The notes under the pieces are model-generated. The model was not told the DNA's origin, did no database searches, and saw only the letters and a program-made list of their open reading frames with translations. A program made the translations under genes and the position numbers. Positions 3,787 to 15,801 of a DNA stretch of 64,000 nt are shown piece by piece (position 1 is the stretch's first letter; each line of letters begins with the position of its first letter). Where the stretch lies: NCBI RefSeq assembly GCF_014145335.1, contig NZ_JACIVI010000003.1, forward strand, positions 186,001-250,000, given 5' to 3'. Source of the DNA: Aquariibacter albus (GTDB taxonomy: Bacteria > Pseudomonadota > Gammaproteobacteria > Burkholderiales > Burkholderiaceae_C).

Positions 3787-5922
<2,136 letters not shown>

Positions 5923-15047: not shown

Positions 15048-15382
15048 TGGTGCCCCGACCCGGGTTCGAACCGGGACGGACCGGTCAAGGTCCGGCGGAT
15101 TTTCTTACCTCCACGGCTTTCGCCGCCCGCGGCCAGGGCCGCGGTTCGGGGTCTGGAGCGCGCCTTCACCATGCCGGCCGCCAAGCCGGTGCAGGTGCCC
15201 GCCGTCCGCTCTCTACACCTTCCACCCGCGGCCGGGCCGCGGGGGCTTGGCTCGGCGTTGCCTCGCAGCGGCCGGGGCCGTGCAGGGGGTTCGCCGAATT
15301 TGACGGGATTCACGCCGGCCGTTTCCGCGCCGGGTGCTCAATGACTCAAGTCCGCTGCGTCTGCCTGTTTCGCCATCGGGGC
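15048..15382 (-). tRNA. tRNA-Leu (anticodon UAA), interrupted by a group I intron
   Basis: On the minus strand the 5' exon (15382-15348) carries acceptor GCCCCGA, a D arm with GCG/CGC, anticodon-stem strand GCGGA and loop bases CTT. The 3' exon (15103-15048) carries AAAA, stem strand TCCGC, a long class II variable arm with CGGACC/GGTCCG, T arm CCCGG-TTCGAAC-CCGGG, acceptor TCGGGGC, discriminator A and encoded CCA. Joined, loop CTTAAAA gives anticodon UAA with the break after U34, the known site of tRNA-Leu(UAA) introns. The 91-nt mature length, all stems and the Leu-type long arm agree. Open frames across this locus are spurious. Confidence 0.95.
15104..15347 (-). ncRNA. Self-splicing group I intron (IC3-like) in tRNA-Leu(UAA)
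   Basis: A 244-nt intron without a protein gene. It starts after U34 of the anticodon and ends in G (15104), the expected omega-G. Recalled landmarks of the Azoarcus tRNA-Ile intron recur: GTCAAATTCGGCGAA (P4 side, about 15289-15303), GGCAACGCCGAGCCAAGC, GGTGTAGAG..GGACGG (about 15202-15220) and ATGGTGAAGG..TCCAG (15153-15172). P4 pairs as TCGGCG/CGCCGA. The P7 strands, ACUA/UAGU in Azoarcus, are AGCG/CGCT here, a compensatory change. Near the 5' end ATTGAG can pair with exon CUU through a terminal U-G to form P1, as in cyanobacterial tRNA-Leu introns. Confidence 0.93.
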
Positions 15383-15426
15383 GACGCGGACCGCATGGTA
15401 GCCGCCCCGTCCGGGGCGGCTGTCGC

Positions 15427-15801
15427 TCACAGGCGACCGGCCAGGCTCAGGGCCATCGTCTCGTCCTCGGTGAAGAGGCGCGAGCGGGTCAGGAAGGCCT
15501 TGCCCTCCGGCCCTTCGAGCGAGAAGGTGCCGCCGTGGCCGCCTTCGACCACGTCGATGATGAGCTGGGTGTGCTTCCAGTACTCGTACTGCTGGGCGCC
15601 GATGTAGAAAGGCAGACCGCCGATCTCGCCAAGCTTCACGTCGGCCGTGCCGATCATGACCTCGCCTTCGAGGTAGCAGTTGGCCGCGCTGTTGTCGCAG
15701 CAGCCGCCCGACTGGTGAAAGATAAGCTTCGGGCCGTACTTCTGCTTGAGCACGCCGATCAGCTCGATCGTCGCCTGGGTGGCAATCACCTTGTCGACCA
15801 T
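15427..15801 (-). CDS. DUF779 domain-containing protein
   Basis: Small cytosolic protein of 124 residues matching the DUF779 family. The family signature HQSGGCCDNSAANC is present, suggesting metal or redox chemistry at the paired cysteines (inference), together with FYIGAQQYEYWKHTQL. The function is not established. Genes of this family are typically found beside acetaldehyde-type aldehyde dehydrogenases, as here: it follows the dehydrogenase gene by 78 bp and probably shares its promoter. It ends 44 bp before the intron-containing tRNA gene. Confidence 0.85.
   Translation of the reverse strand: MVDKVIATQATIELIGVLKQKYGPKLIFHQSGGCCDNSAANCYLEGEVMIGTADVKLGEIGGLPFYIGAQQYEYWKHTQLIIDVVEGGHGGTFSLEGPEGKAFLTRSRLFTEDETMALSLAGRL

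Follow-up and report, generated by a model that had tools for sequence, protein, structure and literature searches.

A predicted IC3-type group I intron in the only tRNA-Leu(UAA) gene found in an Aquariibacter albus genome assembly, with relatives on putative integrative elements

The minus strand of the window, as the whole 64,000-nucleotide stretch of Aquariibacter albus DNA under analysis is called here, carries at positions 15382-15048 a tRNA-Leu(UAA) gene that is interrupted after U34 and measures 91 nt once joined. With introns allowed, ARAGORN reported in this region a tRNA-Leu(taa) of 91 bases with a 244-nt intron ('gactt-Intron-aaaat'). The 5' exon of 35 nt (15348-15382) ends in U34, the intron occupies positions 15104-15347, and the 3' exon of 56 nt (15048-15103) includes an encoded CCA. 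In ARAGORN the joined tRNA folded into a regular cloverleaf whose variable arm is long. A preliminary description of this DNA had already placed a 244-nt insert in a tRNA-Leu(UAA) gene; its coordinates, strand, insertion point and lengths proved exact to the base in ARAGORN's intron mode. The break after U34 and the final G of the insert (omega G, position 15104) that it named also hold at the exon and intron boundaries, and these boundaries are the same in relatives. The final base was G in 253/253 labelled introns from all sources, a set separate from 30 intron matches without host label. The last exon base of the labelled introns was U save in 29 tRNA-Leu(CAA) genes, where it was C; three Thr rows were moved by one base so that the exon ends in U.

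The neighbour at 15427-15801 is a DUF779 gene. Between it and the tRNA, at 15390-15426, lies a strong GC hairpin with no T run behind it, and a weak match of this hairpin to a CRISPR repeat was judged to be due to chance. ORFs that cross the intron continue into the tRNA and past it, and were likewise attributed to chance. No homing endonuclease gene was found in the 244-nt intron, which has no room for a usual one, and the intron should therefore not home by itself.

In the window, default ARAGORN and Rfam at gathering level reported a tRNA-Val(CAC) only and missed the tRNA-Leu(UAA). Such genes escape default searches with these programs, and the genome then appears to be without an essential tRNA. 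In intron mode ARAGORN often named shifted frames. Calls of tRNA-Phe and tRNA-Tyr with Leu(UAA) exons were relabelled, as were Gln and Arg calls with Ile(CAU) exons, and genes named 'tRNA-Met' (cat) were assigned to Ile(CAU) on the basis of their exons. The Rfam model RF00028 gave no match to the window at gathering level and none in the region at E values up to 10. The preliminary description had named a missing RF00028 score as evidence against the intron. The score is indeed missing, but the test is weak: in a control with 20 loci, the window's and those of 19 relatives, 0/20 reached the 50-bit cut-off, the best with 40.3 bits, and the model gave 31.7-40.3 bits in 8 loci and no match at E <= 0.1 in the other 12. 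As all 20 loci of this intron group stayed below the cut-off, the miss in the window says little, and RF00028 was dropped as the deciding test.

A group I fold was drawn for the minus strand, and 54/54 of the drawn pairs are standard in the window (with P3 there in another register). P1 (15337-15350) joins the exon CUU (15350-15348) to the guide GAG (15339-15337), with a U34.G wobble at the 5' splice site. The P2 hairpin (15311-15336) has a GAAA loop and standard pairs throughout in the window; 6/10 of its pairs show changes in both strands in a 34-row alignment of Leu introns whose other rows are partly out of register. The low pairing percentages of P1 and P2 in this alignment are an alignment effect, most other rows being out of register there. 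P3 is formed by CCCG (15304-15307) and CGGG (15198-15201), the 3' strand being placed by a wider alignment of 42 cores. P4 (15252-15297; strands 15297-15293 and 15256-15252) encloses the P5 stem in both alignments, and two P5 pairs drawn were paired in 100% of cells in the Leu-only alignment versus 43% in the wider one. The P6 hairpin (15222-15245) was paired in 84.9% of cells among the 42 cores. P7 combines GAGAGCG (15207-15213) with 15155-15161, the latter strand again placed by the 42-core alignment, and the alignments put the P8 hairpin, with a loop longer than in the other 33 rows, at 15167-15197. An extra hairpin (15127-15144), in which 7/8 pairs change on both sides in the 34-row Leu alignment, precedes the P9 hairpin GGC-GAAA-GCC (15115-15124), which was drawn from that alignment and the sequence.

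The 42 sequences of the wider alignment were the window together with Leu, Ile and viral introns. P3 and P7 were paired in 100% of their cells, with changes on both sides in 4/4 P3 pairs and 3/6 P7 pairs. The covariation score was 0.459, compared with 0.137 when shuffled and at most 0.120 when slid. Among the 34 Leu introns with flanks, 25/54 pairs changed on both sides against 19.1 in shuffles, and the score was 0.188 against 0.084 in shuffles. This alignment used an earlier P3 register, CCGUC/GACGG, taken from the window alone, which gave way to CCCG/CGGG once the wider alignment was made. The compensated change in P7 that the preliminary description had pointed out is real and comprises three pairs in the 34-row and 42-row alignments. 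Two are common to 32/34 Leu rows; the third, a G-C pair, occurs among the rows of both alignments only in the window and in locus L106.

As a single sequence the intron folded with z = -1.53, 4/100 shuffles folding equally well or better, and the pseudoknot was absent from the minimum-energy fold. This weak z-score and the high G+C content are what a chance GC-rich sequence between two tRNA-like halves would lead one to expect. Many homologues lie at the same tRNA position and covary, however, and the 42-core alignment refutes this explanation, to which we give practically no weight. Core pairing and covariation support the assignment of the insert, already made in the preliminary description, as a predicted Azoarcus-like group I intron (IC3). 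The window intron shows IC3 traits: it is small, lies in a tRNA anticodon loop, lacks a P5abc extension and ends both P2 and P9 in GAAA loops. Passages of PMC11835236 describe IC3 introns as being without P5a-d regions.

The genome assembly consists of 11 contigs with 3,313,822 bases, is 99.66% complete and contains 44 Rfam tRNA matches. ARAGORN, run on loci covering all 44, typed the other leucine tRNAs as CAG, CAA, UAG and GAG. Searches of the 11 contigs with Rfam, ARAGORN in intron mode and BLAST revealed neither a second complete tRNA-Leu(UAA) nor a half of one; the joined tRNA, used as BLAST query on the genome, matched nothing beyond the two exons of the window gene. The window gene is the sole tRNA-Leu(UAA) found within this assembly; ARAGORN and BLAST produced no other intact copy of the sort that the preliminary description had set against its reading. 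As no other UAA-decoding leucine tRNA was found, splicing should be needed to read UUA.

By established group I chemistry, the precursor would be self-splicing and react in two steps that depend on guanosine. In P1 the exon CUU would be held by the guide GAG of the intron, with the U34.G pair located at the cut. In the first step a free guanosine would be bound in P7, and in the second the last G of the intron would replace it there. Conservation, together with the presence of only one detected gene copy, suggests that the window intron probably splices itself. A decayed insert that no longer splices, in a pseudogene whose UUA codons are read by another tRNA, would agree with the missing RF00028 score. 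It is very unlikely, as the core pairs are intact and compensated, a genome of the same genus differs by 13 substitutions and no indel in the intron, and no alternative tRNA-Leu(UAA) was detected with ARAGORN or BLAST.

That second genome of the genus, G001, carries the same intron in the same place (2/2 genus genomes). Window and G001 agree in 231/244 intron bases, and their exons differ by 1 change. The flanking DUF779, P450 and aldehyde dehydrogenase genes have identities of 93%, 81% and 97%, respectively, and the tRNA may be co-transcribed with the DUF779 and aldehyde dehydrogenase genes. The anticodon arm of the window gene, GCGGACTTAAAATC, is that of 23/30 intronless family genes read. 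A second class of Leu(UAA) intron genes, called class H, has an exon ending in ACACAAGGGACTT or close to it. For an intron tree 165/253 rows were kept, those longer than 300 nt or shorter than 150 nt and near-copies being dropped. In this quick tree, calculated without bootstraps and with the window row flagged for odd base composition, the window, G001 and four Methylibium-type introns (L106, L329, L344, L373) formed one clade with an SH-aLRT value of 92, and the nearest named intron to that of the window is from Methylibium. The clade adjoins another that contains nearly all class H rows and all Leu(CAA) rows. The label LeuUAA_N (class N) needs 4 changes on the tree and is not one clade, and only the six-row part with the window was used; L103 and L132 carry this label only through an ARAGORN frame shift. 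These data indicate that the tRNA gene with the window intron is solitary and of native type, and that the intron is inherited within the genus.

The position of the gene differs between the window's genus and the Methylibium-type loci. In the latter it lies behind tRNA-Cys, with tRNA-Gly in addition where the stretch reaches that far. In the window's genus it lies outside the Gly-Cys-Leu cluster, behind the DUF779/aldehyde dehydrogenase pair, and the Gly-Cys pair of the window's own genome is not followed by a Leu gene. The gene or the cluster was accordingly rearranged within the genus or between genera.

The spread of related introns was examined with a core pattern, free of tRNA sequence, that combines P7, P8 and the strand connecting them. 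In the genome collection the pattern matched at least 119 stretches, and 113/119 listed matches lie within introns that interrupt tRNA anticodon loops. Among the matches listed there were 69 Leu(UAA), 20 Leu(CAA), 21 'Met' (CAU, read as Ile), 3 'Phe' and 6 uncalled genes, the three 'Phe' calls being shifted Leu(UAA). A covariance model of the core, termed R1, detected matches in 77/299 genomes of the family (54/126 genera), in 76/370 genomes of the class and in 47/397 genomes of the phylum, each count including the window's genome and the weakest matches, which were taken without one-by-one checking. R1 scored 87 bits on the window (E 2.7e-24), which is one of the 42 training rows, and 87.6 bits on G001, which is outside the training set. 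Many other places in the family reached 100-124 bits, compared with 87 for the window core. Such introns thus appear to be frequent in beta- and gammaproteobacteria and not rare, and the impression of rarity left by the preliminary description needs correcting.

Among the host tRNAs of the family are Leu(UAA), Leu(CAA), Arg(CCU), Thr(UGU) and Ile(CAU), the last at two positions. In L342, L348-L352 and L354 the tRNA-Ile(CAU) intron follows U33, giving this tRNA a further insertion point. The tRNA-Leu(CAA) introns (L084, L151, L116, L139, L112 and others) follow C34 in 29/29 cases, and their 5' splice-site pair would be C-G, not U.G. At L098 an ORF with a NUMOD1 domain, which is common in homing endonucleases, lies at 1046-1972 near an intron-bearing tRNA-Ile gene. 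Intron genes of proteobacterial type were also seen in a Mycobacterium MAG (L094), a Chloroflexi MAG (L096) and the alphaproteobacterium Sphingobium (L127); wrong binning, contamination or transfer may account for them. The Klebsiella plasmid NZ_CP139688.1 (L283, IncL/M) contains at 4994-5294 a tRNA-like gene with a related intron and the ARAGORN anticodon tta, about 95 bases from an ORF adjoining aac(3)-IId.

The viral contigs L170, L185, L202, L230 and others carry tRNA genes (Leu-UAA, Arg-UCU and others) with this kind of intron. Phage proteins adjoin the intron-bearing genes in L170, L185 and L202, and none of the three proteins tested in L230 had a named phage function. Three uncultured phages with genomes of 595-735 kb (LR756501.1, LR756503.1, LR756511.1) showed about 77% identity to the intron part of the L170 query. 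According to passages of a 2014 review (PMC3984707), the phage introns known at that time lay in protein genes despite the many phage tRNA genes.

About 170 nt before 18/71 Leu(UAA) intron genes, at named loci, a motif search found the 5' half of another tRNA-Leu(UAA). The halves are cut after ...GACTTAAAATC, and all 18 loci are of class H. With a native tRNA as query, the 5' half was found near the class H gene in ten class H genomes of the family. In 7/10 of these genomes the 5' half shares its contig and strand with a matching 3' half at a distance of 41-64 kb; the halves were on two contigs in G183, G127 had no clear 3' half, and the pieces in G137 were far apart. Eight genomes were compared, with the locus pairs L447/L408 (G065), L445/L412 (G109), L439/L418 (G269), L440/L414 (G205), L438/L421 (G239), L442/L417 (G273), L444/L426 (G284) and L443/L427 (G183); the element size of 41-64 kb was measured in seven of them. 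In 8/8 genomes both halves contain CTTAAAATC, which belongs to the anticodon loop. Their acceptor ends pair 7/7 in seven genomes by computation and, judged by eye, with one G.U in the eighth, G109. The shared CTTAAAATC and the pairing acceptor ends identify the halves as one split gene.

Just inside the 3' half lies an integrase ORF of about 400 aa with the domains PF00589 and PF13356 (two tested), and similar ORFs occur at the other right ends. A TrbI-like ORF was found near the class H gene of L131. The ORFs behind the class H gene of L061 looked by eye like an efflux operon and not a transfer module. The left-end motif was present in 10/299 family genomes, with an R1 match a few hundred bases onward in 10/10. 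In a separate, score-based search, similar 5' halves lay upstream of 19/29 Leu(CAA), 15/46 Ile(CAU, U36) and 20/89 class H genes; there were none at Ile(U33) (0/7), Thr (0/2) and Arg(CCU) (0/3) genes or in shuffled flanks. Pfam, run on ten ORFs in the neighbourhood of Leu(CAA) and Ile(CAU) genes, detected one TrbI (L151) and no integrase, so the whole element is documented for Leu(UAA) only.

The tRNA halves speak against the view that class H genes are mere extra copies. Pattern matches in 168/299 genomes overcount intact intronless genes, at least 4 of these genomes (G065, G109, G183, G284) holding the cut 5' half. Full-length matches of about 80% in 4/10 class H genomes were typed as intact tRNA-Leu(CAA), not UAA; weaker full-length matches, of 78% and below, occur in G065 and G183. 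Judged from gene order and sequence, some integrative elements with a tyrosine integrase appear to split the native tRNA-Leu(UAA) in its anticodon loop and to supply a complete, intron-bearing replacement, and the sister class H thus appears to spread horizontally. Replacement tRNAs borne on such elements would offer tRNA group I introns without an endonuclease a concrete means of spreading horizontally.

As some sister introns are carried on elements, the tRNA-intron gene of the window could have arrived whole on an element that was since lost. Its place behind the DUF779/aldehyde dehydrogenase pair, outside the Gly-Cys-Leu cluster of several relatives and with no Leu gene at its own Gly-Cys pair, would suit such an arrival. 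Against this, BLAST found no tRNA half anywhere in the genome, the exons are of native and not of class H type, the Methylibium-type sister introns lie behind tRNA-Cys in the cluster, and the window's intron clade is separate from class H in the tree. Upstream of the window gene and the class N genes 5' halves were found at 0/11 loci (L106 and L326 being the same place, and L286 and L287 belonging to one genus). An arrival on a lost element is thus improbable. Of the two modes of descent raised in the preliminary description, vertical and horizontal, both occur in the intron family, and genus mate, tree and missing tRNA half place the window copy on the vertical side. We consider it highly probable that a small group I ribozyme of the IC3 kind interrupts the sole tRNA-Leu(UAA) found here, and that it belongs, as a resident, to a family in which the sister branch travels partly on elements. 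The window thereby adds an example of a resident betaproteobacterial tRNA-Leu(UAA) intron that is conserved in its genus.

The insertion point of the Leu(UAA) intron falls inside the repeated core of the halves, which fits the view that the intron may hide the replacement tRNA from the integrase. It is conceivable, and we put it forward only tentatively, that the intron of the replacement breaks the integrase target, that a resident intron such as that of the window shields the sole tRNA-Leu(UAA) in the same way, and that such introns are kept as a protection and not as harmless parasites. Target hiding would offer a directly testable reason for intron retention.

The window intron belongs to an already known kind of intron. 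We take the group I intron (IC3) in tRNA-Ile(CAU) of Azoarcus BH72 to be of the same size class, with the same core blocks, GAAA loops on both P2 and P9, and a terminal G; it differs in its host tRNA and in its site after U36, whereas the window intron follows U34 of tRNA-Leu(UAA). The core of the window intron could be aligned with that of Ile(CAU) introns from other bacteria, whose P7 differs by compensation, with ACU in the Ile rows versus AGC in nearly all bacterial Leu rows. The tRNA-Leu(UAA) intron of cyanobacteria and plastids, likened here by description, has the same host tRNA as the window intron and the same position, U34/A35. A gammaproteobacterial tRNA-Leu intron was reportedly described in 2002. 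Excerpts of PMC4476775 attribute the tRNA-Leu(UAA) intron to most cyanobacterial genomes, and excerpts of PMC5733544 place the cyanobacterial and plastid intron in the UAA anticodon of tRNA-Leu. An interrupted tRNA-Leu(UAA) of giant sulfur bacteria, again the same host tRNA and likened by description, is mentioned in part of PMC4853749. Group I introns of tRNA-Ile2 in Acidovorax and Burkholderia, betaproteobacterial like that of the window and in another host tRNA, were missed by a tRNA finder according to a section of PMC8450103. According to part of PMC4033280, group I introns occur in tRNA genes of cyanobacteria, alpha- and betaproteobacteria. Among the literature matches listed, which lay mostly outside subscription journals, no report of betaproteobacterial tRNA-Leu(UAA) introns or of elements carrying intron-bearing replacement tRNAs was recognised.

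Genomic islands that split tRNA genes, with island sequences restoring the split gene, are described in the Islander paper (PMC4383910). The window's own tRNA gene bears no sign of an island, having no upstream half and no tRNA half elsewhere in the genome. The class H elements share with the Islander islands a tyrosine integrase, a split tRNA target and a fragment at the far end. In the Islander islands the split gene is restored, whereas in the class H elements it would stay split and a whole second, intron-bearing tRNA would be supplied.
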